A stretch of 16,338 bases of DNA from an uncultured Alistipes sp. GTDB lineage: Bacteria > Bacteroidota > Bacteroidia > Bacteroidales > Rikenellaceae. Under the pieces are notes generated by a model. The model worked only from the letters and a program-made list of their open reading frames with translations. It did no database searches and was not told where the DNA came from. Both the position numbers and the translations under genes were made by a program. Each line of letters starts with the position of its first letter. The stretch's first letter is position 1. Positions 3,407-16,338 of the stretch are shown here, in pieces. The stretch is taken from contig CALGRZ010000014.1 of assembly GCA_937880705.1 (NCBI GenBank), forward strand, positions 1 through 16,338. Direction: 5' to 3'.

Positions 3407-4195
3407 CTACAACTTGAATTTATAGGTTATGCCAAAGATATGGCGATACTCATTCTCGCGCTTATAGCCCTTCAGATCGCCCTTATTACCCTTGTAGTCG
3501 ATGTTGTACGAGCGATCGTAGTCCATGTAGTAGTAGAACTCCATGCGGTGGTTGCGGCGGATGCGGTACTTGACACCGACACCGGCACGGTAGCGCGTAA
3601 CGTAGTTATCCGTACTCCACTCTGCCTCCTTATAGTTGGCCACAACCTGCGGGGCGTTGAGCGTATTGTGCAGCTCGAAGAGCAGATAGGGTGTCCACCT
3701 CGAGTGGCGGATATTGTACTCGGCCATAAGGCGCGAGCGTAGCACAAGAGCACAGGGCGACTTCTCAAAGCGGTTAACCGAGTCGGTGCGGAAGGTTGTC
3801 TGCAACCTCTCGCGCAGCGACAAGTCGACACGACCCACCTTCACCGTACCCTCCAAGTTGAGGTTGACACGGTGACGCGGACGCTCCCAACGGCCCACCT
3901 CGTGGGGGTTGATAAGCAGGTAGTCGGCACCCACGTTGAAGTATTTGCACACCTCATACTCGGCACCTACCGAGGTCTGCAGGCGGTCGACGGTGGCAAA
4001 GTCCTCCTTGAGGCGCACCTGGAAAGAGGCCTCTAACGACAGATGCTTGATGGGCTCCCACTCGAAGCTGCCCTCCAGACGACCACGGAAGTCGTTACCG
4101 GTGATGTTGGCAGGTGCAGGGATCTCCTGCGCCATGGCTGCCGAGGCCGCGATAAGCATCACGACAACAACGACATATCTCTGCAAAGTCTTCAT
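3407..4195 (-). CDS. DUF2490 family outer-membrane beta-barrel protein
   Basis: A 262-residue exported protein with a signal peptide cut after AMAQ (residue 23). The rest is a series of amphipathic strands with alternating hydrophobic and polar or aromatic residues (SLEASFQVRLKED, VNLNLEGTVKVGRVDLSLRERLQTTF, TPYLLFELHNTLN, YRAGVGVKYRI, RMEFYYYMDYDRSY), ending HIFGITYKFKL. A C-terminal aromatic strand of this kind is typical of an outer-membrane barrel. The shape and motifs fit DUF2490, a Bacteroidetes family of unknown function. It follows the DUF4956 gene by 12 bases, so it probably shares its message. A link to the polyphosphate polymerase gene two places upstream is suggested by position only. 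Confidence 0.82.
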   Translation of the reverse strand: MKTLQRYVVVVVMLIAASAAMAQEIPAPANITGNDFRGRLEGSFEWEPIKHLSLEASFQVRLKEDFATVDRLQTSVGAEYEVCKYFNVGADYLLINPHEVGRWERPRHRVNLNLEGTVKVGRVDLSLRERLQTTFRTDSVNRFEKSPCALVLRSRLMAEYNIRHSRWTPYLLFELHNTLNAPQVVANYKEAEWSTDNYVTRYRAGVGVKYRIRRNHRMEFYYYMDYDRSYNIDYKGNKGDLKGYKRENEYRHIFGITYKFKL

Positions 4196-4207: not shown

Positions 4208-4957
4208 CTAATCGTTAAATGCATTCTTCTCGTTGAGCTTCAGCGTGCTATCCACCGACGGACGCTCACCCTTCACGGGGCGATAGTGAACCTTCAGGAA
4301 GGCGACATCGCGCAGCAGGTCGACATTGCCCACATCGACACTCTCAACCTTCAGGCCGAGGCGTTGCTCGAGGTCGGCGATAAGCTCCTCACGACGCTCG
4401 GGGCGTATAAGCTCGATACGCTCATAGCAGACGAGCTTCGACGCCGTGCCTTTGCGCATGACGTAGTACTCCAACACGGCCAACACCGCGATGATAAGGC
4501 CGTTGGCCAGAGCCAGCTCGGCATACGACACCATGAGGTTAATGCCGTTGATCACCGCCACGGCAATGGTCAGAAAGAGGTATGTCATCTCGCGGATAGG
4601 CACCATCTCGGTACGATAGCGCATGATGCCGAAGATCATAAACAGACCAAGACCAATGCTCACATCGATGCCCACGCTCTTGAGGAAGAAGAGCAACAAA
4701 AAGACGGCTGACGAGAAGAGCATGAAGGTCGCAGAGAAGTCCTTGCGACGACTCTTCGGATAGTAGAAACAACGCACGATGATGCTGCACACTATGAGGT
4801 TGAGCGCAAACTGCACGGCGAGCTGCATAACCGACATCGTATCGCACAGAGGGATGCCCAGGAAGGTGGCACCCATATCGCCCTCGGCACCGGCCAGAGC
4901 AGCTATCTCGGCATCATACAGATCGGGGTCGATGCCCGTATCGTCAAAACGTATCAT
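4208..4957 (-). CDS. DUF4956 integral membrane protein
   Basis: A 249-residue inner-membrane protein. Hydrophobic segments lie near residues 45-63, 77-94, 97-112, 126-146 and 150-166. The hallmark IMFGIMRYRTEMVPIREMTYLF-like stretch is at about 106-128 (FGIMRYR, then VPIREMTYLF), followed by a soluble C-terminal domain of about 80 residues (KLVCYERIELI to the end) that may be cytoplasmic. DUF4956 genes are commonly next to VTC-domain polyphosphate polymerase genes, and that is so here (5-base gap). A reasonable inference is that the pair makes a membrane-bound polyphosphate synthase or exporter, but the biochemical role of DUF4956 is not settled. Start ATG at 4957-4955. Confidence 0.87.
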   Translation of the reverse strand: MIRFDDTGIDPDLYDAEIAALAGAEGDMGATFLGIPLCDTMSVMQLAVQFALNLIVCSIIVRCFYYPKSRRKDFSATFMLFSSAVFLLLFFLKSVGIDVSIGLGLFMIFGIMRYRTEMVPIREMTYLFLTIAVAVINGINLMVSYAELALANGLIIAVLAVLEYYVMRKGTASKLVCYERIELIRPERREELIADLEQRLGLKVESVDVGNVDLLRDVAFLKVHYRPVKGERPSVDSTLKLNEKNAFND

Positions 4958-4962
4958 ATTGG

Positions 4963-5766
4963 TTATCTTTTAGTTAATCGTTTATCTATTTCGCGTAGTC
5001 GCTCCTTGAAGCGGTTGCACTTCACACCCGCAACGGTGAGGGCAGTGCCTATGCAGTACTTGCTCACCTTGAGCGGCGTAATACGCATCTGTCGTAGCAC
5101 GCGCTTCATCACCGAGTCTTGCAGACCATCCTGCTTAAGCTCGACGATGGCCATCCGCTCGATGGTAGCCTCACGGCCGCCACGCATATCCCGATAGCGC
5201 AGGTCGAGGTCGATGGTAAGACGCTCGGTGAAGGCCGGGTTGATGAGCGTGATGCGCGTAAAGCGGGTGCGCAGTGCCGGGGTCAGCCGCCCGATGTCGT
5301 ACCATGCATGGTCACTGAAAAAGGCCATCGCAGCAGCATCCTCCGAGAAGCCGTGGAAGAGCTCGGCCGAGATACCCACACGTCGCTTGCGCGTGCGACC
5401 CCGATTGCTCTTGTTCTTGATCTCGAGGAAGCTCACGCCACTCTCGACATAGGTTCGGGTGCGTATCTTCTGGCGGGTGAGCCTACGGTTGTGGTGCACA
5501 AGGTACATGTCGCGCTCGGCGGTGTCGTAGTAGAGCGTATCGTAGCGACAGGCCCTACACTGCCCGATGAGCTGCACCTTATATCCCTCCACGGCCGCCC
5601 TATCCAGAAGGTCGAGCACCTCATCCACGCTGAGCACATACTTCGTATCGACACGGTTCATCAGTTTAACACCCTGCATCTCGGCAAGCGTGACAGTGGC
5701 CATACGCTGCCAGACGGGGAGGTTGTTAAGGGCCTCAAAGGTTGTGTTCGGTCGAGTATCGGGCAT
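4963..5766 (-). CDS. VTC-domain polyphosphate polymerase
   Basis: A 267-residue soluble protein of the VTC (vacuolar transporter chaperone) family, whose tunnel-fold domain builds polyphosphate from nucleoside triphosphates. Basic and acidic tunnel motifs are visible: RVDTKY (38-43), RYDTLYYDT (74-82), HNRR (92-95), KIRTRTY (100-106) and FLEIKNKSNRGRTRKRR (113-129). Near the C-terminus IVELKQDG carries a likely metal-binding glutamate. There is no SPX domain and no membrane segment of its own. Membrane attachment would come from the DUF4956 protein encoded 5 bases downstream. The ATG at 5766-5764 overlaps the TGA of the upstream gene (TGATG), a sign of coupled translation. A GTG one codon earlier is less likely. 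Confidence 0.88.
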   Translation of the reverse strand: MPDTRPNTTFEALNNLPVWQRMATVTLAEMQGVKLMNRVDTKYVLSVDEVLDLLDRAAVEGYKVQLIGQCRACRYDTLYYDTAERDMYLVHHNRRLTRQKIRTRTYVESGVSFLEIKNKSNRGRTRKRRVGISAELFHGFSEDAAAMAFFSDHAWYDIGRLTPALRTRFTRITLINPAFTERLTIDLDLRYRDMRGGREATIERMAIVELKQDGLQDSVMKRVLRQMRITPLKVSKYCIGTALTVAGVKCNRFKERLREIDKRLTKR

Positions 5767-6185
5767 CACTCGTAGATATATTCAAATTGGCGATAGGAGT
5801 TCAACATTCCGTTGGGCGAGTAGTTATAGCGACGTGTGCAGACACCCTGGCTGTCATACTCGAACTTACGCACCTTCTGCACCTTGCCGCGGCTGTTGTA
5901 GACCACCTCCTTGATGAGCAGACCCCGCTCGTTGTACTCGTAGGTCGACCGCCACGAGAGATAGTGGCCGTAGTCGGCATACTCTCTCTCCTCGATAAGA
6001 CGACCCTCGGCATCATAGAGCTCGGTGTGGTCTACCCACTTGTTCTTGCCATCGGGCGTGGTCTTCCACTCCTTGACCAGTAGCGTCTGTCGCTTTGCAC
6101 GGGCCAGAGCACCACGATCCTGCTCCTGTGCCACGACGGGCAGGGCGCAGATCATCACCATCAACATCATCACTACTCTTCGCAT
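5766..6185 (-). CDS. Small secreted protein with YD-like repeats, function unknown
   Basis: A 139-residue exported protein. A signal peptide of about 20 residues ends at PVVAQ. The mature part has repeated units of the form YD/YN-x-x-G-x-x-x-x-x-x-x-Y: ELYDAEGRLIEEREY, YEYNERGLLIKEVVY, FEYDSQGVCTRRYNY, then YSPNGMLNSYRQFEY. These resemble the YD/RHS or MORN-like repeats of surface proteins. No catalytic motif is seen. It is the first gene of the minus-strand run and overlaps the start of the polyphosphate polymerase gene by one base, so it is translated with it. A weak candidate -7 box (TAATTTTT on the minus strand) lies near 6224-6231. The role is unknown. Confidence 0.72.
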   Translation of the reverse strand: MRRVVMMLMVMICALPVVAQEQDRGALARAKRQTLLVKEWKTTPDGKNKWVDHTELYDAEGRLIEEREYADYGHYLSWRSTYEYNERGLLIKEVVYNSRGKVQKVRKFEYDSQGVCTRRYNYSPNGMLNSYRQFEYIYE

Positions 6186-6322: not shown

Positions 6323-7408
6323 CTACAGCTCGCTCTCCTTAAGACGCTCGGCATTCTCGGCCACGATAAGCTGGTCGATAACATCCTGAATGTCGCCATC
6401 CATAAATGCCGAGAGGTTGTAGATGGTGTAGTTGATGCGGTGGTCGGTGATACGTCCCTGGGGGTAGTTGTAGGTACGAATCTTGGCCGAGCGGTCACCC
6501 GTCGACACCATAGTCTTACGCTTCGAGGCTATCTCGTCGAGATACTTCGAGTACTCGAGGTTGAAGACTCGGGTACGAAGCTCCTCGAAGGCCTTATCGA
6601 AGTTCTTGAGCTGCGACTTCTGGTCCTGACACTGCACGACAATACCTGTGGGGATGTGGGTAAGACGGATAGCCGAGTAGGTGGTATTCACCGACTGGCC
6701 ACCGGGACCCGATGCACAGAAGATATCCTTGCGGATGTCGTTCATCGAGATCTCGATGTCGAACTCCTCGGCCTCGGGCAACACAGCCACCGAGGCTGCC
6801 GAGGTGTGAACACGTCCCTGGGTCTCGGTCTGGGGCACACGCTGCACACGGTGCACACCCGACTCGTACTTCAACGTGCCGTAAACACTCTGGCCGGTCA
6901 CCTTGAGCACAACCTCCTTGTAACCGCCCGCAGCACCATCCGACGACGAGGTGATCTCATATCGCCAGCCCTTTGACTCGATATACTTGGTGTACATACG
7001 CAACAGGTCACCTGCAAAGATGGCGGCCTCATCGCCACCGGTACCGCCACGGATCTCGACAATTGCATTCTTATCGTCCTGGGGATCCTTGGGGATAAGC
7101 AGCAGCTTGATCTCCTCCTCCATCTTCTCGATGGCGGGCTCGAGTGCTGCCACCTCCTCGCGGGCTATCTCGCGGAACTCCTCATCCTTCTCATTAGCCA
7201 GCACATCCTTTGCCTCGGCAAGGTTGGCCAACGCGGTGCGGAAACGCTCCGAGGTCTCGATGATGGGCTCCAGCTCCTTGTACTCCTTGGTGAGCTGCAC
7301 GAACTGCTTGACATCGGCAATAACCTCGGGGTCGGTCAGCTTCTGACCTATCTCCTCGTACTTCAGACGTAGGCCGTCGAGGCGTATCAAAATTGAATTA
7401 TCAGCCAT
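6323..7408 (-). CDS. prfA: Peptide chain release factor 1
   Basis: A 361-residue release factor that reads UAA and UAG in the ribosomal A site and triggers release of the finished protein. The catalytic GGQ is at 236-238 (CASGPGGQSVNTT). The stop-codon reading tripeptide of the RF1 P-x-T type is PQT at 192-194 (RVPQTETQGRVHTS). RF2 would have SPF here, so this is RF1. The acidic coiled N-terminal domain (about 1-110) and RGGTGGDEAAIF (120-131) complete the family signature. Length matches E. coli RF1 (360). It has its own upstream promoter on the minus strand and its own terminator, so it is a single-gene unit pointing away from the phage-type cassette. Confidence 0.97.
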   Translation of the reverse strand: MADNSILIRLDGLRLKYEEIGQKLTDPEVIADVKQFVQLTKEYKELEPIIETSERFRTALANLAEAKDVLANEKDEEFREIAREEVAALEPAIEKMEEEIKLLLIPKDPQDDKNAIVEIRGGTGGDEAAIFAGDLLRMYTKYIESKGWRYEITSSSDGAAGGYKEVVLKVTGQSVYGTLKYESGVHRVQRVPQTETQGRVHTSAASVAVLPEAEEFDIEISMNDIRKDIFCASGPGGQSVNTTYSAIRLTHIPTGIVVQCQDQKSQLKNFDKAFEELRTRVFNLEYSKYLDEIASKRKTMVSTGDRSAKIRTYNYPQGRITDHRINYTIYNLSAFMDGDIQDVIDQLIVAENAERLKESEL

Positions 7409-7554: not shown

Positions 7555-7585
7555 TTGACAAAGGCTTTTTGGCGTTGTATATTTG
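7555..7585 (+). promoter_or_regulatory. Promoter of the phage-type cassette
   Basis: TATATTTG (7578-7585) is a perfect Bacteroidetes -7 box. TTG of TTGACA (7555-7560) lies 20 bases upstream, within the 19-21 base spacing of that promoter class. Transcription should begin near 7591, leaving a leader of about 240 bases before the first cassette gene. A host-type housekeeping promoter in front of phage genes is notable. Confidence 0.75.
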
Positions 7586-7625
7586 CACTGTAATTCGACG
7601 GCACAAGCGGCGATTACAACAAGTT

Positions 7626-7643
7626 TGTTGACACTATTAACAA
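7626..7643 (+). promoter_or_regulatory. Imperfect palindrome, candidate operator 1
   Basis: TGTTGACACTATTAACAA: the arms TTGTT/AACAA (from 7625) flank a 9-base centre. Its left half is identical to the perfect palindrome exactly 100 bases downstream (TGTTGACACT in both). Two related sites in one leader suggest a common binding protein. Confidence 0.4.
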
Positions 7644-7718
7644 TTTCGATATTTCGGTTATAAACACCTATATAATACTGATATTCAATATATGATTTTC
7701 AGAAGATAGTTATATATT

Positions 7719-7820
7719 ATGTTGTTGTTGACACTTTGTCAACACCCCGGGATACTCCCCGACGACTGCAGCGAAGGGGGTATCCTACAGGGGAGAGAAC
7801 AACCCTTTACACACGATTAA
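7719..7820 (+). CDS. Possible 33-residue leader peptide
   Basis: ATG at 7719 opens a 33-codon frame ending in TAA at 7818-7820, only 11 bases before the first cassette ATG. The peptide begins MLLLTLCQHPG and ends GREQPFTHD. The AT-rich sequence ahead of the ATG suits Bacteroidetes translation starts. The frame runs across both the palindrome (7726-7744) and the long hairpin (7745-7793), so its translation would open those structures. No known family is recognised. It could equally be a chance frame inside a structured leader. Confidence 0.25.
   Translation: MLLLTLCQHPGILPDDCSEGGILQGREQPFTHD
7726..7744 (+). promoter_or_regulatory. Perfect palindrome, candidate operator 2
   Basis: TGTTGACA (7726-7733) and TGTCAACA (7737-7744) are exact reverse complements around a 3-base centre. 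A 19-base site with 8-base arms is typical of a dimeric repressor. It would also fold as a small RNA hairpin. It lies about 135 bases downstream of the predicted transcription start, so repression would be by roadblock or by looping with the related upstream site. Confidence 0.5.
7745..7793 (+). promoter_or_regulatory. Long leader hairpin
   Basis: GGATACTCCC (7750-7759) pairs with GGGGGTATCC (7776-7785) over ten positions including one G-T pair; 7749 with 7786 adds a further G-T pair. CCCC 7745-7748 with GGGG 7790-7793 extends the stem past a 3-base bulge. The loop of 16 bases contains CTGCAG. No T-run follows, so it is not a terminator. It ends 38 bases before the first cassette ATG. Confidence 0.5.
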
Positions 7821-7831
7821 ATTATTTGATT

Positions 7832-8800
7832 ATGAAGTTTACAACAATACCAAAAAACGGAGCTTCGTGGCACGATAATCTGATCTATGAGTTTGACTCC
7901 GAGATCGCTGAAGGGGCAGACTACACCCTCTCGATAAACGATAAGTCGCGCGGGATAGTCATAGGCCTTGTCACACTGCGCAACGTCACAAAGGCCAAGG
8001 TCGACATCGCCCCGTACATACGCCGAATAATGGGCGCGACACCCACGGTGAGCACAACGCCCACGGTGAGCATATCGCCGGCAGCTCTTGTCATAAACCT
8101 CTCGTGCGACGACATCCGAAGCGAAAATCGGCTTATATTCCGCTCCGAGATCAAGAGCCTTGCACCCGAGCTCTACACACGCAGCGTCACACGCCAGACC
8201 GTACGTCGCAACGACCCTATACTTCTGACGGCCTACGGCGAAGAGTACGTCACGGTGAGGATTCGATACATGCACAACAACAGCTCGACCACCAAGGAGA
8301 TAACGCACCGCACATACGGACTGCCGGCAGAGCTCTGCATACCCACCACCTCGACCAACGACACTCTGCGCAGCGTGCATCTGACGATTAGCTGCGACAA
8401 TGCCGTGACATACGAGCGCGACTACACCATTGGCGAGGGGCTCGACAATGCCGCTACACTCTACTGGTACAACCCCATGGGTGGTGTCGACCACTACACC
8501 TTCCCGCTGGTACGCCTCCAGGAGCGATATGCCGAGGTTGAGAGCATAACCACCTCAACGACCACCTATCGCAACCTTAAGAGCGACCGACTGACCTACA
8601 CACTGACAAGTGCACGCGAGGTACCAGAACAGATGAGCCAGCTGGCCGAGATTGTCGGCTCGCCACACATATTCTGTCACCTCGACGGCAGCCTTGTAGA
8701 GGTGGAGATGCCCGAGCGCAAGATAGTCTACGACAACCACGGCGCACTCCCCCTGCTTCAGATCAAACTTACTACCAACGCTAAATGCCGACTGCTATGA
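7832..8800 (+). CDS. Phage tail-tip/fibre-like protein
   Basis: A 322-residue protein, first gene of the cassette, with no signal peptide. Residues 1-60 look like a compact beta domain (SWHDNLIYEFDSEI, then DYTLSINDKSRGIVIGLVTL), followed by VDIAPYIRRIM (65-75). The central part has the motif LYWYNPMGGVDHYTFPLVR (about 209-227). That resembles a motif I associate with tail-fibre/tail-tip proteins of Bacteroidetes phages, where a 'W-x-N-x-x-G-G-x-D-x-Y-T-F' pattern recurs. A tandem 18-base repeat gives TPTVST/TPTVSI at about 70-81. I chose ATG 7832; the frame is open to a TTG at 7736 inside the palindrome, which is a poor start. Its TGA overlaps the next gene's ATG by four bases. The structural role is inferred; the exact part is uncertain. 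Confidence 0.6.
   Translation: MKFTTIPKNGASWHDNLIYEFDSEIAEGADYTLSINDKSRGIVIGLVTLRNVTKAKVDIAPYIRRIMGATPTVSTTPTVSISPAALVINLSCDDIRSENRLIFRSEIKSLAPELYTRSVTRQTVRRNDPILLTAYGEEYVTVRIRYMHNNSSTTKEITHRTYGLPAELCIPTTSTNDTLRSVHLTISCDNAVTYERDYTIGEGLDNAATLYWYNPMGGVDHYTFPLVRLQERYAEVESITTSTTTYRNLKSDRLTYTLTSAREVPEQMSQLAEIVGSPHIFCHLDGSLVEVEMPERKIVYDNHGALPLLQIKLTTNAKCRLL
8039..8074 (+). repeat. Two-copy 18-base tandem repeat inside a coding region
   Basis: Two 18-base units (8039-8056 and 8057-8074) share CCCACGGTGAGCA in register and encode TPTVST and TPTVSI. The unit length keeps frame, so copy number could vary without breaking the tail-fibre-like protein. Confidence 0.7.
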
Positions 8801-11121
8801 CACGACTATGGATTGATGGTGTGGAGTGCGCCATTGTGGGCGACTCCCCGACACTACCGGCCTACGACAGCCGCCGCCTGCGCTCTGTCGAGGCGTGGCG
8901 CGAGGGCGAGAGCATGGCTATCCTCATTGGAGCAACGCCCGAGGCCGACAGCGTGCTCTACATGGCCCGCGACATATACCGCACCTCGAGCTTCAACGAC
9001 GACTACCACGAGGCCATCTTCGAGGTTGACGGCACGGTACTCTTCCGAGGTGTTGTAACGCTCCTCGGCACGTCGTACCACGACGGCGAGGCCTGCTACC
9101 GCCTGCTGATACGCTCGGGAGGTGCCCAGTGGGCCAAACAGGCTGCGACAACACGCCTCAACGAGAGTGCGATAGAGTACAACGGCTGCCTCACCCTACC
9201 CGACATCGAGGCGAGCTGGAGCCAGCAGTGCCCCGTGCGCTTCATGCCACTATGGCGCGACCGCTACCCCGAGTACACTACCGACACAGGCATCTACGCA
9301 ACACAGGCAACGCTGATGCCCCACGACTACTACCCCTTCCTGGCCATTGAGCCAATTATCGACTCGATGGTCAAGAGCAGCGACTACACGCTGGTGAGCC
9401 GCTTCATGCAGCTACGTCTGTTCAAGAGCCTGATGATGAGCGGTGCCTACCGCACCCTGCGCAGTGCCGAGGCCTACGCCACGATGGGCTTTAAGGCCTA
9501 CCGCACAACCTCGACAACAAACCAAGCCGACGACATGGGCCGCGTCTATGCATGGCTGCCCTACACAGCATCGAACATCGGCTGCATAGTCGACACGGTG
9601 AGCCCCACGGCCACGGATGAGCAGGGCAACACGCTGGGCGATGCCTACAACTACGGCAACTGCTTCACCTTCGACAAGGGCAGACCCGTATTTCGCCCAC
9701 GCCGCACCATCTCCACGGCCTTCGACATGCACCTGCGCTACACCACCGACTACCGCATAGTGTCGAGCAGTGAGCTGCGAGGCTTCGACACCATCTCGCT
9801 GGGTGGCGAGTGCGTGGTGAAGGTCAAGCTCTCCAACCCCTTTGTCGACCAACGCTCGAGACTTGTGGCAGGAACCTCCTACCGCGTGCTGATCTTCGAC
9901 CACGACACCGGGTGCAGCTACATGCTGGATGGCTATGGGGAGCTGACCGATGCCGATAGCCTGATCACCGCCACCGAGGAGATGCAGCGTGGCACACGCC
10001 TGCTGGTCAAGGGCGAGGGTGAGAGCCAATACTCGGAGTATACGGGTGACTGGGCCATATACTTTGGCTATGTGACTTCAACGGGCAGTCAGACCGTTGC
10101 CGTGGACATACGCACCGACTACCGAGAGCTCTCGCCCTCGAAGCCCGAGTTGTTCAACGCCATCTTCTTCGCAGGTGCCGAGCCCGGGCAGTCGCTGACA
10201 CTACACAACGGATGCAGCGTAACACCCGTCTTCAACGGTGTAGCCGGCTTTGGCTCGGAGCTCACGTTTAGCGATGTGGCCAACGTGGATATCTCGCAGG
10301 CCGACCTTATGGAGGCACTGATGCAGATGTTCAACCTCTGCATCTACTCCGACGACACGAGTCGCAGACTCTATATCGAGCCCTACGACAGCTTCTTCAC
10401 CGACGACATCCACGACTGGCAGCATAGGCAGATTGACGAGCCTCACGACGGTGTAGAGCTTCGTGGCGAGTGCTACGAACGACTGACACTGGGCTACCAA
10501 CCCACCGACGGCATAGGTCTGCGCAGCGACGAGGCGAGCGGGAGCACCGCAGGCTCGTGGAGCTACACCACCGAGGGCTACGCCTCGAAACAGGCAACGC
10601 ACACCCTGCTCAACCCGCTCTTCGCGCCCACCCTGTCGCTCCAGGGCATGCTCTCCACCGCCCCCGCAGCCGAGGTGATGTGCGTGGGCGACCGCGACGC
10701 ACTCAACGACGACTTCAACATCTCACCGCGTGTGGTCATCTATCGCGGTTTGATGCCACTGCCCGAGGGCCAGACGTGGGGTGCTGCGAACAACGCCTAC
10801 CCCTACGCCTACTTCCACTCTCCGCAGATGGAGGATGGCCTCGGCTTCGAGGTGCGCGACAACAGCTACGGCCTACACCGCTACCACCTCACCGAGCTGG
10901 AGCAGAGGGCCTCGGGACAGAGACTATGCTGCCGCATAGTGCTCCACCCCGATGAGTACCGCGACCTCTTCGATATGGAGGGCAAGGGTGCCACGCTGCG
11001 ATCACTCTTCCGCCTGCGCCTCGGACAGAACAGCTCGCTCTTCCGTCTGGAGGCCATAACCCACTACGACTACGAGGCTCACATCGCCACTTGTAGCTTT
11101 ATACGCACACTTAACGACTAA
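8797..11121 (+). CDS. Large phage tail-tip/baseplate-like protein
   Basis: A 774-residue protein without signal peptide or membrane segments. The N-terminal 130 residues follow a pattern I know from tail-tip proteins of Bacteroidetes phages: DGVECAIVGDSP, SVEAWREGESMAILIGATPEADSV, SFNDDYHEAIFEVDGTVLFRG, then YRLLIRSGGAQWAK. In those relatives the pattern includes 'FN...A.i.vdG..v..G...L'. A long beta-rich middle and a domain around LMQMFNLCIYSDDTSRRLYIEPYD follow; the latter also occurs in such proteins. I chose ATG 8797 because it overlaps the upstream TGA (ATGA). ATG 8785 would add four residues. It probably forms part of a particle that touches the target cell. No enzyme motif is seen. Confidence 0.6.
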   Translation: MTRLWIDGVECAIVGDSPTLPAYDSRRLRSVEAWREGESMAILIGATPEADSVLYMARDIYRTSSFNDDYHEAIFEVDGTVLFRGVVTLLGTSYHDGEACYRLLIRSGGAQWAKQAATTRLNESAIEYNGCLTLPDIEASWSQQCPVRFMPLWRDRYPEYTTDTGIYATQATLMPHDYYPFLAIEPIIDSMVKSSDYTLVSRFMQLRLFKSLMMSGAYRTLRSAEAYATMGFKAYRTTSTTNQADDMGRVYAWLPYTASNIGCIVDTVSPTATDEQGNTLGDAYNYGNCFTFDKGRPVFRPRRTISTAFDMHLRYTTDYRIVSSSELRGFDTISLGGECVVKVKLSNPFVDQRSRLVAGTSYRVLIFDHDTGCSYMLDGYGELTDADSLITATEEMQRGTRLLVKGEGESQYSEYTGDWAIYFGYVTSTGSQTVAVDIRTDYRELSPSKPELFNAIFFAGAEPGQSLTLHNGCSVTPVFNGVAGFGSELTFSDVANVDISQADLMEALMQMFNLCIYSDDTSRRLYIEPYDSFFTDDIHDWQHRQIDEPHDGVELRGECYERLTLGYQPTDGIGLRSDEASGSTAGSWSYTTEGYASKQATHTLLNPLFAPTLSLQGMLSTAPAAEVMCVGDRDALNDDFNISPRVVIYRGLMPLPEGQTWGAANNAYPYAYFHSPQMEDGLGFEVRDNSYGLHRYHLTELEQRASGQRLCCRIVLHPDEYRDLFDMEGKGATLRSLFRLRLGQNSSLFRLEAITHYDYEAHIATCSFIRTLND

Positions 11122-11141
11122 CATCAACAACCAACGCTCCA

Positions 11142-12296
11142 ATGTCTAACACCACTCAAAAGTATGCCGAGATAGCATCGCCACGCGGGTCGCGTCGATA
11201 TGAACGCCTCATCGGAACACTGCTCTCTACACAGCTGATCGATCCGTCGACCCTCGAGCGAAGAGCCATCTACGACTATGTATCGAACAACACTCAACGA
11301 CACCGTGGTCGTTGCAGTGCCATGCGATGGGCCGCAGCACGGTTTGGCTGCTCATACGAGAAGGTACGCAAGGTGGTGTACGACACGGAGCATAACCTTT
11401 CATCACTAAAACAGATGCACTCATCAATCAACATTCGCAACGAAGCGGACTGCACCACCATCGACATCGAGGGCACCATAGGGCTCTCCGAGCAGTGGCA
11501 GTTCGACAACCCCAACAGCCGTGTGGCGACCTATGAGGCCTTCCGCGAGAAGGTATCGCACATCGCCAACATCGCCGACACGCACATCATTGTCAACATC
11601 CGCTCCACGGGTGGCGACGTGAACGATGCTATACTCATCTACGAGGCCCTGCGTGCCACAGGAGCGCATATCACAACGCGCTGCTACGGCTACACCGCCT
11701 CGGCAGCAACCATCGTGGCACAGGCAGCCTCGGAGGGCTCTCGAGAGATTGCAGCCTCGTCGCTCTACCTCATCCACAACTCGCTGTGCTCGACCGAGGG
11801 CAATGCCGAGGAGCTGCAGGCCGAGGTCGAGATGCTGCGCCAGACCGACAGCCGTCTGGCCGAGATCTACGCGACACGCTCCGGCGTGCCCACCGAGCAG
11901 ATTGCAGCACTCATGGCCGAGAATGGCGGTCGTGGTCGCTGGCTCTCACCCGCCGAGGTCATCGAGTATGGCCTTGCCGACTGCCTCGTTGCCGAGAGCG
12001 TGACACCTGCCCGCGAGCAGAGCCTCGGCGACCGCGCCCTGAAGGGGGTTAAGGCACTGCTGAAGGCCATAGGTCTGGAGCGTGACACCCCCGAGGCCGA
12101 GGACGACATCAACTACATCCCTCGCCAGAGGGCTACGGCGGCGGCCGACCACTCGACCATCGCCTTTGAGGAGGCACAACGCAGTGCCACAATGACATCG
12201 CTCAAAGAGGTGGAGGACCCCTCGCTGAGCGACCCCACACTCACGCCTCGCGGCACGGCCTATGAGCGTGATGCACGCTCGCTGCGCCAGCGTTAA
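11142..12296 (+). CDS. ClpP-like phage head maturation protease with N-terminal HTH-like segment
   Basis: A 384-residue protein. Residues about 95-285 form a ClpP/S14-type serine protease: IVNIRSTGGDVNDAILIYEAL (150-170) with the oxyanion-loop GG, the nucleophile Ser187 in CYGYTASAAT, His212 in YLIHNS, then EYGLAD (275-280). The third catalytic residue is not clear; Glu260 is a candidate. Such proteases cut capsid and scaffold proteins while phage heads mature. Before it, residues 55-82 (MRWAAARFGCSYEKVRKVVYD core) look like a helix-turn-helix. After it come 100 charged residues that could act as an internal scaffold, as in protease-scaffold fusions. The gene sits directly before the capsid gene, which fits the role. 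The added HTH-like part is unusual. Confidence 0.78.
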   Translation: MSNTTQKYAEIASPRGSRRYERLIGTLLSTQLIDPSTLERRAIYDYVSNNTQRHRGRCSAMRWAAARFGCSYEKVRKVVYDTEHNLSSLKQMHSSINIRNEADCTTIDIEGTIGLSEQWQFDNPNSRVATYEAFREKVSHIANIADTHIIVNIRSTGGDVNDAILIYEALRATGAHITTRCYGYTASAATIVAQAASEGSREIAASSLYLIHNSLCSTEGNAEELQAEVEMLRQTDSRLAEIYATRSGVPTEQIAALMAENGGRGRWLSPAEVIEYGLADCLVAESVTPAREQSLGDRALKGVKALLKAIGLERDTPEAEDDINYIPRQRATAAADHSTIAFEEAQRSATMTSLKEVEDPSLSDPTLTPRGTAYERDARSLRQR

Positions 12297-12350
12297 AAGC
12301 GTACTAAACCAACCAAAAAAATCTACTAACATCTATTAAAACACCTTATT

Positions 12351-13310
12351 ATGGGACTTATCGAACACACCAAGACCTACACCGGCAACGACCTTGAAAC
12401 CATCTTCTTCCGCCCCATGCTCACCGGCCCCAATGCCGAGGAGCTCGGCATCCGCGTGATCTACAACATGCCCATGCCCACCACCATCCAGCTGTGGGCT
12501 GCCAAGTCGGACATCCTCCAGAACTACACCTCGGGCTGGACAGGTGGCACAAGTGCAGACCGCAAGCAGAAGACCATCGACATGGCCAAGATCAAGGCCG
12601 AGCTCGGCTTCTCCGCCTCGGACTACTTCAACCAGGTCTACGAGCTCATCGTAAACAGTGCCTCGGTCAACCTCGACGACCTCTCGGGCACCGAGCTGGA
12701 GAGGGCCGAGACCGAGCTCTTCCGTAAGTCTATCGCCGAGAGCCTGCGCACGATGATGTGGGTGGGCGATGTCGACAGCAACAGCCGCAACCTCTTCGAC
12801 GGACTGCTGACCAAGGTCTACAAATATCCCCACAAGGATATCGACATGAGCGATATCACCCTCTCGGCCGACACCGTAACCTCGATTTTTGACAGATTGT
12901 GGGAGGCGGCCGACCACAAGTTGAAGTGCCTGAAGTCGGAGGGCAACCTCGCCTTCTTCGTCACCTCGAACGTGTGTGATGCCTACGAGCTGTGGCTCGA
13001 CAAGTTTGGTGGCGATGCGGCCTACACCGACATCAACACCGGCCGTCGCGAACTCTCGTACCACGGCATCCGCATCATCGACATGAACATCGACGCCTGC
13101 CTGCCGCTGGATGTCAACGAGAGTATGCACCACGTCTTCCTCACCGACCGCCGTAACCTCGCCCTCGCGGTAAATACCGCCGACTACCCCGGTGCCGAGG
13201 TGCGCATGTGGTACAACCCCGACGAGATGGAGAACCGCCAGCGTGCCACCTTCCTGGCCGGCACCGAGATCCTCGACGAGACGCTGGTTATATCTGCATC
13301 ATTCATCTAA
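12351..13310 (+). CDS. Probable major capsid protein (HK97-like)
   Basis: A 319-residue protein between the head protease and portal genes, the expected place for the main shell protein. Visible hints are WAAKSDILQNYTSGWTGGTSADRKQKTIDMAKIKAE-type linker (48-83, in pieces), ELIVNSASVNLDDLSGTELERAETELF, FFVTSNVCDAYELWLD (about 204-219), GIRIIDMNI, HHVFLTDRRNLALAVNT and a C-terminal strand VRMWYNPDEMENRQRATFLAGTEIL. A late 'L-T-D-R-x-N-L' strand followed by a basic/aromatic strand is typical of HK97-fold shells. It has the longest upstream gap of the cassette (54 bases, A-rich), which may give it high translation. It ends in ISASFI. The call rests mainly on context and overall form. Confidence 0.7.
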   Translation: MGLIEHTKTYTGNDLETIFFRPMLTGPNAEELGIRVIYNMPMPTTIQLWAAKSDILQNYTSGWTGGTSADRKQKTIDMAKIKAELGFSASDYFNQVYELIVNSASVNLDDLSGTELERAETELFRKSIAESLRTMMWVGDVDSNSRNLFDGLLTKVYKYPHKDIDMSDITLSADTVTSIFDRLWEAADHKLKCLKSEGNLAFFVTSNVCDAYELWLDKFGGDAAYTDINTGRRELSYHGIRIIDMNIDACLPLDVNESMHHVFLTDRRNLALAVNTADYPGAEVRMWYNPDEMENRQRATFLAGTEILDETLVISASFI

Positions 13311-13328
13311 CCTAAAACTGCGTAAGCT

Positions 13329-14558
13329 ATGACCGAAAAGAGAGTTGCAACACGCATCACCACTACCGACAACCGCACCGAGCCTCTACTGGGCTCGGTG
13401 GCGGCCGGCGGCACAGCCTCGACAAGCGATCGTGTGTGGCGTTGGGGCGACAACAACGCCCTGCCCACAGCCCTCTCGCTTATGGCACGTCGCTCGGCAG
13501 CACACCGCCGCATCATCAACGACAAGGCCGACTATATCGCCGGCAAGGGCTTCGCCTACGACGATGGCTGCAACCCCATCATCGCAAGCCTTGTAAACAG
13601 AGCCAACGGCGAGGGCGACAGCCTGCGCGGTGTTATCGCCCGTCTGGCATACGACATTGCACTTCTGGGCAACGCCTTTATGGAGGTCGTCACCGATGCC
13701 AACCGCTCGTTTCTGTCGCTCTACCATCACGATGCCTCGACATGTCGTGTCGCCCGCGACTCACAGCACATCGTCATGCACCACAATTGGTCGTCATTCA
13801 CCGCCACCGATGCCAAGACACTACCCCTCTACCCCCTCTTTGAGGAGCAGGAGGATGGCACGCTGCGTAGCATGATCCACTACAAGGAGTATGAGCCCAT
13901 GTTTGCACACTACGGCGTGGCAACCTATGTCGCAGGCCTCGACGTGGCGGCCATAGCCTGGAAGACCGACCGCTGGAACATCTCGCGCATCGACAACTCG
14001 TTTCAGCTCTCCGGCGTGATGATGCTCGACAGCGCAGTAGATAGCGAGGAGGAGGCCGACCGCATAGTGCGCATCGCCGAGGAGAAGTTCGCCGGCCGCC
14101 CCGGACAGGTACTCTTCGTGTTGCGCGACCACAGCGATGGTGACAACTCGCGCTTCATACCCATCGACACCTCGTCCGATGGCGACTGGCACACACTCCA
14201 CACGCAGGCCGAGAGCGATCTGGTTATCGCCCACTCCTGGTTCCGCTCGCTCAGCGGTCTGGACTACTCGTCGGGCTTCTCCACCGACCGCATACTCCAC
14301 GAGTATGAGGTGGCACTCAACACCATCATCCTGCCCGAGCAGCAGAGGCTCATGGAGCCCCTGCGCAACATCCTCCGCGAGGTGATGGGCGTGGATGCCT
14401 CATCGCTGGAGATTGTCAACCGCCCACCCACGACCTCGAAGCCCCCATACATGAGGGTGTGGGAGGCACGCCGAGCCGATGGCTTGTGCTACGACGAGCA
14501 CGACCCCGAAGAGCAGATCTTCCTTGCCGACCTAAACCGTAACCGCACAAAAGATTAA
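13329..14558 (+). CDS. Phage portal protein
   Basis: A 409-residue portal-like protein. Portals form the twelve-part ring at one head corner through which DNA enters and leaves. Family signs include RRIINDKADYIAGKGF (about 60-75), LAYDIALLGNAFMEVV (102-117, the usual 'GNAF-E-V' strand), LYHHDASTCRV, SGVMMLDS, then a helical region EEADRIVRIAEEKFAG and a C-terminal helix block EYEVALNTIILPEQQRLMEPLRNIL. It is slightly short but within the range seen in siphophage-like elements. It lies 18 bases after the capsid gene and 6 before the connector gene. A portal with no terminase nearby is a key oddity of this cassette. Confidence 0.82.
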   Translation: MTEKRVATRITTTDNRTEPLLGSVAAGGTASTSDRVWRWGDNNALPTALSLMARRSAAHRRIINDKADYIAGKGFAYDDGCNPIIASLVNRANGEGDSLRGVIARLAYDIALLGNAFMEVVTDANRSFLSLYHHDASTCRVARDSQHIVMHHNWSSFTATDAKTLPLYPLFEEQEDGTLRSMIHYKEYEPMFAHYGVATYVAGLDVAAIAWKTDRWNISRIDNSFQLSGVMMLDSAVDSEEEADRIVRIAEEKFAGRPGQVLFVLRDHSDGDNSRFIPIDTSSDGDWHTLHTQAESDLVIAHSWFRSLSGLDYSSGFSTDRILHEYEVALNTIILPEQQRLMEPLRNILREVMGVDASSLEIVNRPPTTSKPPYMRVWEARRADGLCYDEHDPEEQIFLADLNRNRTKD

Positions 14559-14564
14559 CCCGCT

Positions 14565-15041
14565 ATGGAGACACTTATCAACCGCGAGGAGGTCATACGT
14601 CTGGCCTTCTCGCCCCACGAGCTGATACTCGAGAGCGTCATCACCCAATCGGATATCGCCGAGGCCGAGCACCGCTATCTGCTCCCTGTGATCGGGGAGC
14701 CACTGGCCTTGGCCCTATATGCAGGCGACTACCCTTCGTTGATGAGCGAGTATGTGGCTCCGGCCGTTGCCGCATGGGTGCGCTATGTGGTGCAGCCACT
14801 ACTCGGCCAGAGGTGTACACCATGCCTCACGGATGATGGCAACGACTTCTACAACGCCACGACGGCCGACAACGTGCGCCTCCGAAGGCTGCAACACACC
14901 CTGCGCCATAAGGCCTCGACGCTGACACGCCGCCTGAGCGACTACCTCAACGCCAATGCGGAGCAATACCCCGAGTTCGACCCGAAACACAACGTATTAA
15001 ATCGCTGTTCGATAGATGGAGACATTATTCAAACTTATTAG
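14565..15041 (+). CDS. Head-tail connector-like phage protein
   Basis: A 158-residue mostly helical soluble protein. METLINREEVIRLAF and the run ITQSDIAEAEHRYLLPVIGEPLALAL (26-51, read in pieces) resemble the small Bacteroidetes phage family (DUF6712-like) that sits after the portal gene and is believed to be a head-completion or connector protein. A helix-rich C-terminal part (LRRLQHTLRHKASTLTRRLSDYL) follows. It overlaps the next gene by 26 bases in another frame, which suggests coupled translation. The position fits the connector role; the family name is from memory and should be treated as tentative. Confidence 0.6.
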   Translation: METLINREEVIRLAFSPHELILESVITQSDIAEAEHRYLLPVIGEPLALALYAGDYPSLMSEYVAPAVAAWVRYVVQPLLGQRCTPCLTDDGNDFYNATTADNVRLRRLQHTLRHKASTLTRRLSDYLNANAEQYPEFDPKHNVLNRCSIDGDIIQTY

Positions 15042-15441
15042 CGGCCTATGCTCCTCGCTGGCCGCACTCTTCTGCCCCATAGCACCCCTTGTAGGTGCCG
15101 TCACGCTCTTCATCGGCGTGGACTTCCTCACCGGCATCGTCGCCTCGCGCGCCGAGGCCAAGAGGGAGGGCCGGCAATGGTGGTTTGAGAGCCGTCGCGC
15201 CTGGCGCACGGTACTCAAGCTGGGCTTTGTGATCATCGCCATCGTGCTGGCACACGTCCTGGACAGCTGCCTCGCGGAGATGCTCACCATCAACCTCGCC
15301 AAGCTCTTCACAGGCTTCGTCTGCGGTGTTGAGCTGTGGTCGTTTTTAGAGAATGCCTCGGCCATCAGCCACTCGCCACACCTCGCATGGCTGGGCCGTT
15401 GGGTTAAACGTCGCGTAGAGAGGGAGGTGGAGAATGAGTAG
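15016..15441 (+). CDS. Phage holin (holin 4 family-like)
   Basis: A 141-residue membrane protein with hydrophobic segments near residues 6-30, 26-45 (LVGAVTLFIGVDFLTGIVAS), 70-88 (KLGFVIIAIVLAHVLDS) and 95-112. LFIGVDFLTGIVAS followed by a basic helix and ESRRAWRTVLKLG is the pattern of the phage_holin_4/toxin-secretion holin family. Holins make holes in the inner membrane so that a cell-wall enzyme can act, ending the infection cycle. The gene starts inside the connector gene and overlaps the next gene by 8 bases. A basic, charged C-terminus (WVKRRVEREVENE) fits holin control regions. Confidence 0.82.
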   Translation: METLFKLISGLCSSLAALFCPIAPLVGAVTLFIGVDFLTGIVASRAEAKREGRQWWFESRRAWRTVLKLGFVIIAIVLAHVLDSCLAEMLTINLAKLFTGFVCGVELWSFLENASAISHSPHLAWLGRWVKRRVEREVENE

Positions 15442-15871
15442 AGGCTTAAGGAACAACAATCCGGGCAATATACGTCGCTCGGGCACACGCTTTCGTGGCG
15501 AGGTGCTGCCCGGCAGCGACCCTTCGTTCAAGGAGTTTTATACCGTGGCTCTGGGCTATCGTGCCATGTTTGTGGTGCTGGACACCTACGCCCGACGATA
15601 CGCTCTGAAGAGCATCCGCGAGATGATCACCCGCTACGCCCCACCCTCCGAGAACTTCACCGAGGGCTACATACGCTTCGTGGCACGCACCGCGGGCATC
15701 ACCCCCGACGAGGAGCTCAACACCCGCCGACCGCAGGATATGATACCCGTGGTTATGGCCATGTCCGAGATCGAGAACGGCACACCGGCCAATATCGGTG
15801 ATGTGCACCGAGGCTGGAACCTCTTTGCCGACGACAGACACGCCACCCACGTCACACCGCCTGCGGAGTAG
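15434..15871 (+). CDS. Virion-type peptidoglycan hydrolase ('structural protein P5'-like)
   Basis: A 145-residue protein starting MSRGLRNNNPGNIRRS, the signature of a family in Bacteroidetes prophages often labelled 'structural protein P5' or endolysin. Further family residues are RGEVLPGSDPSFKEF, GYRAMFVVLDTYARRY, MITRYAPPSEN and NTRRPQDMIPVVMAMSEIENG, ending in GWNLF. It probably cleaves cell-wall sugar strands; a glutamate near residue 24-25 or in the RYAPPSEN segment could be catalytic, but I cannot assign it. There is no signal peptide, so it would rely on the holin encoded by the overlapping upstream gene. It is the last gene before the cassette terminator. Confidence 0.75.
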   Translation: MSRGLRNNNPGNIRRSGTRFRGEVLPGSDPSFKEFYTVALGYRAMFVVLDTYARRYALKSIREMITRYAPPSENFTEGYIRFVARTAGITPDEELNTRRPQDMIPVVMAMSEIENGTPANIGDVHRGWNLFADDRHATHVTPPAE

Positions 15872-15885
15872 CAGTCTACACCATC

Positions 15886-15920
15886 GGGGCTGACTAAAAC
15901 AGGTTTAGTCGGCCCCTTTT
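15886..15920 (+). terminator. Intrinsic terminator of the cassette
   Basis: GGGGC-T-GACTAAA (15886-15898) pairs with TTTAGTC-G-GCCCC (15904-15916) over 13 positions, with one T-G pair and a 5-base loop. TTTT follows at 15917-15920. It begins 14 bases after the lysin stop. A clean terminator closes the unit and isolates galE. Confidence 0.88.
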
Positions 15921-15988: not shown

Positions 15989-16338
15989 ATGAGCAAGAGA
16001 GTACTTGTTACGGGTGGTGCCGGCTACATCGGCTCACACACCACAGTTGAGCTTATCAACGCCGGCTATGACGTGGTCATCGTCGACAACTTCTCAAACA
16101 GCGACCCCTCGTCACTCGAGGGCATCAGGCAGATTACGGGTATCGCCCCCGACTTTGTAGAGGCAGACTGCTGCGACCGCGAGGCACTGGAGCAGGTCTT
16201 CCGCGACTACGACTTCCAGGCCGTGATACACTTCGCTGCCTATAAGGCTGTGGGAGAGTCTGTTGCCGAGCCCATGAAGTACTACCGCAACAACATGGTA
16301 TCGCTGCTCAACATCCTCGACCTGATGAAGCAGTACGA
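15989..16338 (+). CDS. galE: UDP-glucose 4-epimerase, N-terminal part (partial)
   Basis: The first 116 residues of an extended short-chain dehydrogenase that interconverts UDP-glucose and UDP-galactose with bound NAD. The nucleotide-binding loop GGAGYIGSH is at 9-17. D36/N37 of VDNFSNS bind the adenosine ribose. VIHFAAYKAVGESV (about 78-91) is the GalE-specific stretch, and NNMVSLLNILDLM continues the family pattern. The catalytic Ser/Thr-Tyr-Lys set lies beyond the window end. The ATG at 15989 gives the usual short N-terminus before the first strand. It has its own promoter and follows the cassette terminator, so it is a host gene bordering the phage-type cassette. Confidence 0.95.
   Translation, partial: MSKRVLVTGGAGYIGSHTTVELINAGYDVVIVDNFSNSDPSSLEGIRQITGIAPDFVEADCCDREALEQVFRDYDFQAVIHFAAYKAVGESVAEPMKYYRNNMVSLLNILDLMKQY

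Follow-up and report, generated by a model that had tools for sequence, protein, structure and literature searches.

Why does a gut bacterium keep the genes for a phage head and for cell lysis, all of them intact, between two ordinary host genes and with no terminase beside them? The question is raised by a stretch of 16,338 nucleotides from an uncultured Alistipes sp. (contig CALGRZ010000014.1; the whole analysed stretch is called the window), in which eight intact plus-strand frames of phage type (g1 to g8, 7832-15871) are bounded by prfA and galE. A reading made from the sequence only, before this analysis, had described the same eight genes and the same two neighbours, and the open reading frames of the window confirm both. 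We conclude, with a probability of roughly two in three, that this cassette is the particle-and-lysis operon of a domesticated, vertically inherited and chromosomally fixed system of Rikenellaceae that resembles a gene transfer agent (GTA) and has its packaging motor at a second locus. The sequence-only reading had proposed that the genes were kept for a host function, and of the functions it named a GTA-like particle fits best, because the two loci co-occur, chromosomal positions are shared across genomes, the genes are under purifying selection and their divergence is congruent with that of rpoB. Read from its genes, the system looks built to work like a GTA and is a candidate member of that class.

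Spread, partner locus and inheritance

Portal homologues above threshold numbered 2012 among 7995 scored candidates, and the named organisms among the best 120 were five Alistipes sp., one Rikenellaceae bacterium and one Caudoviricetes sp. The cassette as a whole was compared in the best 80 of 173 genome-contig stretches encoding a portal relative, some of which end at contig edges; all are from Alistipes sp. and Rikenellaceae, bar one 'Bacteroidales bacterium'. The set goes beyond chance: of the eight gene families, the least frequent is found in 68 of the 80 loci and the most frequent in 79. The region is fully spanned in 63 loci. In 46 of them none of the eight genes departs much from full length; the remaining 17 comprise 14 in which a shorter protease (g3) frame is the sole difference, one with a short g2 and two without the usual holin. 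Position is also shared. A divergent prfA lies at most 8.5 kb upstream of the portal gene in 30 of the 80 loci, a galE homologue occurs in 14, and cassette groups that are not prfA-linked share other neighbours in common.

Neither a terminase nor an integrase nor a repressor was found among the 18 window proteins that were family-scanned (the first ~600 bases lie outside the scan). The earlier claim that terminase and repressor are absent therefore stands for the window; it fails for the genomes of relatives, where both genes are at another locus. Twenty-six genomes, chosen for carrying the portal or cassette, were searched whole, and every one has a match to PF03237 (Terminase_6N), with one copy in 25 and two in one. 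The protein, ~480 amino acids (aa) long in most genomes and sited away from the cassette, is a large terminase (TerL) by profile (phrog_38, E 3e-94). Over 97% of its length it shares 47.1-47.6% identity with the TerL proteins of the Bacteroides fragilis siphophages B40-8 and B124-14 (47.6% for B40-8), and our own alignment places Walker A, Walker B and two nuclease motifs in 26/26 genomes and a third nuclease motif in 24/26. The idea of a long-term loss of everything except particle and lysis genes fails for the packaging and repressor genes, which relatives keep at this second locus.

Two other proteins accompany TerL in 26/26 genomes. One, of ~226 aa, has helix-turn-helix and S24 peptidase domains and is a phrog_4 repressor (CI/LexA-like); its gene is divergent in the TerL loci whose gene order was examined. 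S24 repressors of this type carry a GDSM serine, an AG cleavage site and a Lys motif, and here GDSM is present in 26/26, the AG-type cleavage motif in 25/26 and the Lys motif in 22/26. The other, of ~96 aa, has no family match and is a possible small terminase. A PF03354-type terminase was rejected as the motor, occurring in only 4/26 cassette genomes and scattered. The TerL profile gave nothing useful against the PDB (one irrelevant match at 0.0017), and the cassette loci L001-L088, 88 in all and often short, contain no TerL frame. Judged from these relatives, the window's own genome would carry the TerL and repressor locus as well.

The two loci are unlinked in all 26 cassette genomes. Across the family they occur together. 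In a draw of 150 genomes from the family of genome G005, read as Rikenellaceae (11 of 12 titled members are Alistipes or Rikenellaceae), the portal was found in 131, TerL in 134, both in 128 and neither in 13 (Fisher p 7e-12). Matches were single in 128 of the 131 portal-positive and in 124 of the 134 TerL-positive genomes. Across the 26 cassette genomes, portal and TerL give concordant pairwise protein distances (rho 0.78, 0/2000 shuffles). As a scale of detection, an rpoB domain was found in 21/26 and dnaA in 25/26 cassette genomes, and single absences are therefore to be expected from incomplete assemblies. When g2 was searched in the 22 family-draw genomes without one or both genes, it was present in all three portal-only genomes and in one of the six with TerL only; in the 13 with neither, the match was strong in G104 and weak in G099 (5.7e-4), and there was none in 11.

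Portal and TerL lie on one contig in 26 genomes of the family draw (coordinates read by hand), with gaps of ~2-3 kb in six, ~8-12 kb in seven and ~19 kb to 2.6 Mb in 13, a series suggesting that a single cluster came apart into two loci. The six closest pairs belong to divergent genomes with contiguous clusters (L131-L136) of terminase, protease, capsid, portal and adaptor, in two of which the repressor was recognised by profile. At L131, the one contiguous cluster with scanned flanks, the seven flanking proteins include no integrase, and the surroundings are host genes, among them a leuA-like and an alcohol dehydrogenase gene. The sequence-only reading had held that these genes, contiguous with terminase and integrase in a full phage genome, would indicate an ordinary phage fragment; contiguity with the terminase is what L131-L136 display, and the integrase was not seen at L131.

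In an order-wide draw of 295 genomes the portal was matched in five, three of which are also in the family draw. The other two, G321 and G335, are distant and have no match to the TerL profile in the stretches read. They contain compact clusters (L163-L171) among host genes, with portal, capsid and adaptor matches and, by eye, protease-like frames and terminase-like frames of another type; G335 has two copies. They may represent another such group, independent of the first.

Distances among 19 genomes are congruent with those of rpoB for the portal (0.75), capsid (0.74), TerL (0.57) and repressor (0.85), each with 0/1000 shuffles, and for the ~96 aa protein (0.42, 5/1000 shuffles); this is a distance test and not a tree reconciliation. 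The prfA gene was rejected as a host marker, being too conserved (portal 0.34, TerL -0.06). The rpoB congruence and the shared positions together argue for mostly vertical inheritance. The ratio of nonsynonymous to synonymous substitution (dN/dS), a check proposed with the sequence-only reading, has medians per gene of 0.24-0.40, which indicates purifying selection in the 46 species pairs with portal dS < 0.75 (26 to 46 per gene) to which it was limited, more distant pairs being saturated.

Genes and control region of the cassette

Features of the window are given by position, strand and identity, with the cassette first and its two immediate neighbours last.

7555-7585, plus: promoter-like site, TTGACA ... 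TATATTTG (sigma-70-type scan, 11/12)
7586-7831, plus: 5' leader, five one-mismatch copies of TTATYRACA on one strand (starts ~7625, 7634, 7658, 7725, 7736)
7832-8800, plus: g1, 322 aa, presumed tail or particle protein (family in 68/80 loci)
8785-11121, plus: g2, 778 aa, baseplate or tail hub (structure model)
11142-12296, plus: g3, Clp-type head maturation protease (PF00574, E 1.6e-26; phrog_94, E 2.6e-37)
12351-13310, plus: g4, major capsid protein, HK97 fold (structure model)
13329-14558, plus: g5, portal protein (phrog_11226, E 1.1e-19; 2012 homologues)
14565-15041, plus: g6, DUF6712, probable head-tail adaptor (PF20459, E 1.7e-7; role from place beside portal)
15016-15441, plus: g7, holin (Phage_holin_4_1; PF05105, E 6e-14)
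15434-15871, plus: g8, endolysin-type protein (phrog_873, E 2.7e-42)
15886-15916, plus: intrinsic terminator, 13-pair stem then T run (terminator scan)
6323-7408, minus: prfA, left neighbour (Pfam PCRF and RF-1)
15989-16338, plus: start of a galE-type epimerase gene (family match; homologue in 14/80 loci)

The roles first read from the sequence hold for the protease, capsid, portal, holin and lysin; of the two proteins called tail-tip-like, the description finds support in g2 alone. The first gene, g1, most likely starts at 7832, gave no significant family match in Pfam and PHROG scans and is presumably a tail or particle protein. No family match by sequence was obtained for g2, which is modelled confidently as a baseplate or tail hub from its predicted structure and fold matches, with a C1q/TNF-like domain inserted at residues ~228-485. 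The capsid protein g4 has weak sequence matches only and none to PDB sequences; its predicted structure is an HK97 fold, and the fold matches of the model include the GTA capsid 6tb9. For the portal (g5) the Pfam match falls under its cut-off and the assignment is taken from phrog_11226, and g6 is probably a head-tail adaptor, given its place beside the portal.

Many cassettes outside the prfA-linked group have two further genes, g0 (~134 aa, before g1) and g4b (~150 aa, in the capsid-portal interval). Whole-genome searches found both in the same 7/26 genomes and missed both in the same 19. A move to a third locus was considered and rejected, as they were not found anywhere in those 19 genomes; g0 and g4b were either lost together or have diverged together past recognition. 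That they are tail genes is a guess.

The promoter and terminator placed at the two ends of the cassette by the sequence-only reading are strong sites (11/12 at 7555; a 13-pair stem at 15886-15916). In the whole window the scan gave 9 promoter-like sites, where shuffles gave 3.7, and 5 terminator-like sites, where shuffles gave 4.8; it is therefore by their strength alone that these two are supported. Of 74 sequences compared, the window and 49 loci (50 in all) have a TTGAC-N-TAnnTTTG promoter no more than 700 bp before the cassette, and the leaders of those 50 contain 88 copies of TTAT[CT][ACG]ACA against 1.8 expected, a post hoc figure, as the 9-mer was picked after the leaders were read. 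Strand bias and phasing were examined after this choice, in leaders that share ancestry. In the 49 loci 87 copies are forward and one reverse, at a density of 6.06 per kb in leaders against 0.118 per kb in the rest of these loci, and 85 of the 87 forward copies are TTATYRACA. With one mismatch allowed there are 201 forward and 35 reverse sites, in ~11 bp steps (R 0.74); the window leader has no strict site, five one-mismatch sites and none on the other strand.

Pairs of the 9-mer occur genome-wide at 29 places in 19/26 genomes, 13 of which are read as cassette leaders from their coordinates, and the backwards control gave 17 places in eight genomes, 11 of them in two genomes. The 9-mer as a canonical DnaA box is unsupported: the stretches upstream of dnaA carry TTATCCACA or TTATTCACA in 20/26 genomes and the array form in two, and the dnaA boxes, TTATYCACA (20/26), differ by one base. 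Tandem TTATYAACA-N-TTATYAACA sites precede a small XRE gene adjoining a HIT-domain gene at L210, L218, L219, L225 and L233 (L210 and L225 come from one genome), and this XRE protein is a candidate regulator of the cassette array. Pairs of the 9-mer are met again in AT-rich (23-29% GC) non-coding stretches of ~390-600 bp 3' of an Mrp/NUBPL-type ATPase gene (L213, L214, L220, L230 and L232); these have TTATYRACA-type sites in or just beside them and long A/T runs, are origin-like, and are kept as the neighbouring gene changes.

The other genes of the left flank, from the family scan, are VTC, DUF4956, DUF2490, xseA, xseB and a methyltransferase. On the minus strand a VTC-domain gene adjoins a DUF4956 gene at 4208-5769, with the DUF2490 gene at 3407-4195.

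Proposed mechanism and rival explanations

GTAs have been defined by six features, including packaging of mostly random host DNA and delivery to other cells (PMC9662315). The derivation of the proteins from Caudoviricetes is seen here in homology and in the HK97 and hub folds, rather than in particle images, endogenization over multiple loci in the separate loci of relatives, and mostly vertical inheritance in the rpoB congruence and the shared positions. A further feature is a genome too large for its head to take in whole; loci separated by hundreds of kb would not fit together into one head if heads are small. A working system would run as follows. The cassette operon would supply capsid, protease, portal, adaptor, hub, holin and lysin, and the unlinked locus, under its divergent S24 (CI/LexA-type) repressor, the large terminase and its ~96 aa companion. 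Relief of the repressor in a few cells would be the trigger. The terminase would then load pieces of host DNA, presumably at random, through the portal into small heads, holin and lysin would open the cell, and a hub-tipped, short-tailed or near-tailless particle would carry the DNA to kin.

A more far-reaching version is tentative, and we put it somewhat short of an even chance. The GTA would be near-universal in and specific to Rikenellaceae, and apparently the first in Bacteroidota; its motor and CI-like switch would have been split off by chromosomal rearrangement, and in the clade of the window the particle would have been reduced to a head with a hub and no tail tube. The helically phased, DnaA-box-like array could then tie particle production to replication or to another global signal.

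A domesticated capsid system that does not transfer DNA is unlikely, though it deserves weight. It would be a device for kin lysis, a protein shell, or a killing or repair device, with packaging kept and delivery lost. Nothing was recognised as a tail tube, tape measure or tail terminator (whole genomes were given no family search for them); g0 and g4b are jointly missing from 19/26 genomes, which include all 15 that are prfA-linked and the closest kin of the window, G001-G004; protease, holin and lysin are kept; and the HK97-fold matches of g4 include encapsulins, which share the fold. Set against this are a hub with a C1q-like, possibly binding, domain kept under selection, and the kept terminase motifs.

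The failure to identify tail genes, the joint absence of g0 and g4b and the encapsulin matches also weigh against the GTA-like reading itself, as do several other results. The six divergent genomes with contiguous clusters are without g2, and the family draw includes three portal-only and six TerL-only genomes. Outliers of dN/dS for g1 reach 1.07, and g1 and the ~96 aa protein are fast-evolving. In G091 (L139) both portal and g1 are broken in two and g6 is short, and an internal stop was flagged in 17/134 portal match rows, mostly near the match end, G091 being the one examined. In PMC12946183, as far as drawn on here, Rikenellaceae are among the most abundant families in total DNA, and the GTA events assigned fall to the Gram-positive Ruminococcaceae, Oscillospiraceae and Christensenellaceae (17, 3 and 3 of 25), with Rikenellaceae unnamed. 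As a separate observation, the TerL, ~96 aa and repressor genes of G091 appear whole despite its broken cassette.

Broken copies such as that of G091, the small gene set and the lack of any integrase or replication gene seen beside the head genes (18 window proteins and the seven flanking L131) would suit an ordinary decaying prophage remnant that happens to have been sampled many times. We consider this improbable in view of the one portal match per genome in 128/131 positive genomes of 150, the 46/63 full loci near full length with 14 of the other 17 differing only in g3, the low dN/dS medians, the rpoB congruence and the prfA neighbour in 30/80 loci. To a similar degree we doubt a satellite or helper-dependent mobile element borrowing helper-phage tails or packaging, which the sequence-only reading had offered. 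The system has its own portal and capsid and its own, unlinked terminase. No integrase or other mobility gene was seen among the 18 window proteins, the same neighbours recur across species, genomes hold a single portal match, and two loci separated on a contig by as much as 2.6 Mb cannot be moved together as a single element. The cell-killing particle, also suggested earlier, does not fit if a tailocin is meant, that is a tail without capsid, portal and terminase, as capsid, portal, protease and terminase are all kept here. That cassette and terminase locus are unrelated relics co-occurring in one family is hardly credible: they are unlinked in the 26 cassette genomes, and TerL is near that of Bacteroides siphophages while the 72 phage matches of the portal include no named Bacteroides phage, but the distance between the two is 2-3 kb in six divergent genomes and ~8-12 kb in a further seven, and they are jointly absent in 13/150 and have matching protein distances (rho 0.78).

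Phage records and comparison with known systems

Against 50,697 phage records the hub gave one match, an unannotated 7.4 kb faecal contig with g1-g5 in cassette order, and the portal 72 weak matches, with <60% identity and none over >80% of its length; no Bacteroides phage by name was among these tblastn matches of portal or hub. A viral scan with a single protein found nothing, and an alignment-based scan returned seven IMG/VR contigs of 4-13 kb. As none of the seven has a TerL frame at E 1e-10, they may be host chromosome fragments labelled viral. L001 and the IMG/VR loci L082-L088 are filed as phage or viral, carry cassette genes and have no terminase frame.

GTAs are hard to recognise, as they resemble remnant phages and are scattered over loci (PMC11841831), and published GTAs often span several loci (PMC9662315). 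The lack of a terminase in a head cassette does not on its own mark it as a relic that can no longer package DNA. No GTA of Bacteroidota was found described in the titles and abstract openings listed from the open-licence literature, preprints being outside this scope. The Rikenellaceae system is a family-wide, sequence-defined GTA candidate in abundant gut commensals. Its motor has been traced in relatives, whose genomes show the likely course from a contiguous to a split arrangement; if active, it would be a route for capsid-borne gene flow among Alistipes.

The siphophages B40-8 and B124-14, close in TerL, are full phages of 45-47 kb, unlike the Alistipes cassette. Capsid-forming phage-inducible chromosomal islands (EcCI2) and P4-type satellites are similar in their compact head-gene set and capsid fold; they are mobile, whereas the Alistipes cassette has no mobility gene seen and positions shared across species. 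In RcGTA the large terminase lies in the head cluster. RcGTA (Rhodogtaviriformidae) is driven by GafA (PMC9638019), while the Alistipes terminase, compared by description, is adjoined by an S24/CI-like repressor. GafA has a DnaA-like domain (PMC9638019), which may be set beside the leader array as a parallel and not as evidence.

The closest likeness in layout is to FpGTA of Faecalibacterium prausnitzii, a two-locus system of a gut anaerobe that forms real particles with ~9 kb DNA (PMC12946183). Both have two unlinked operons, phage-derived head genes and a holin with endolysin, and both are small; FpGTA is genus-wide. FpGTA has its terminase with the head genes and a second operon of tail and lysis genes, whereas in Alistipes head, hub and lysis genes stand together and the terminase is elsewhere with the repressor. 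The particles of FpGTA have been shown and the Alistipes system is known from its genes, the two being compared by description and not by sequence. If the Alistipes system is active, it could be compared with the alphaproteobacterial and Faecalibacterium systems as one built from a different phage stock.

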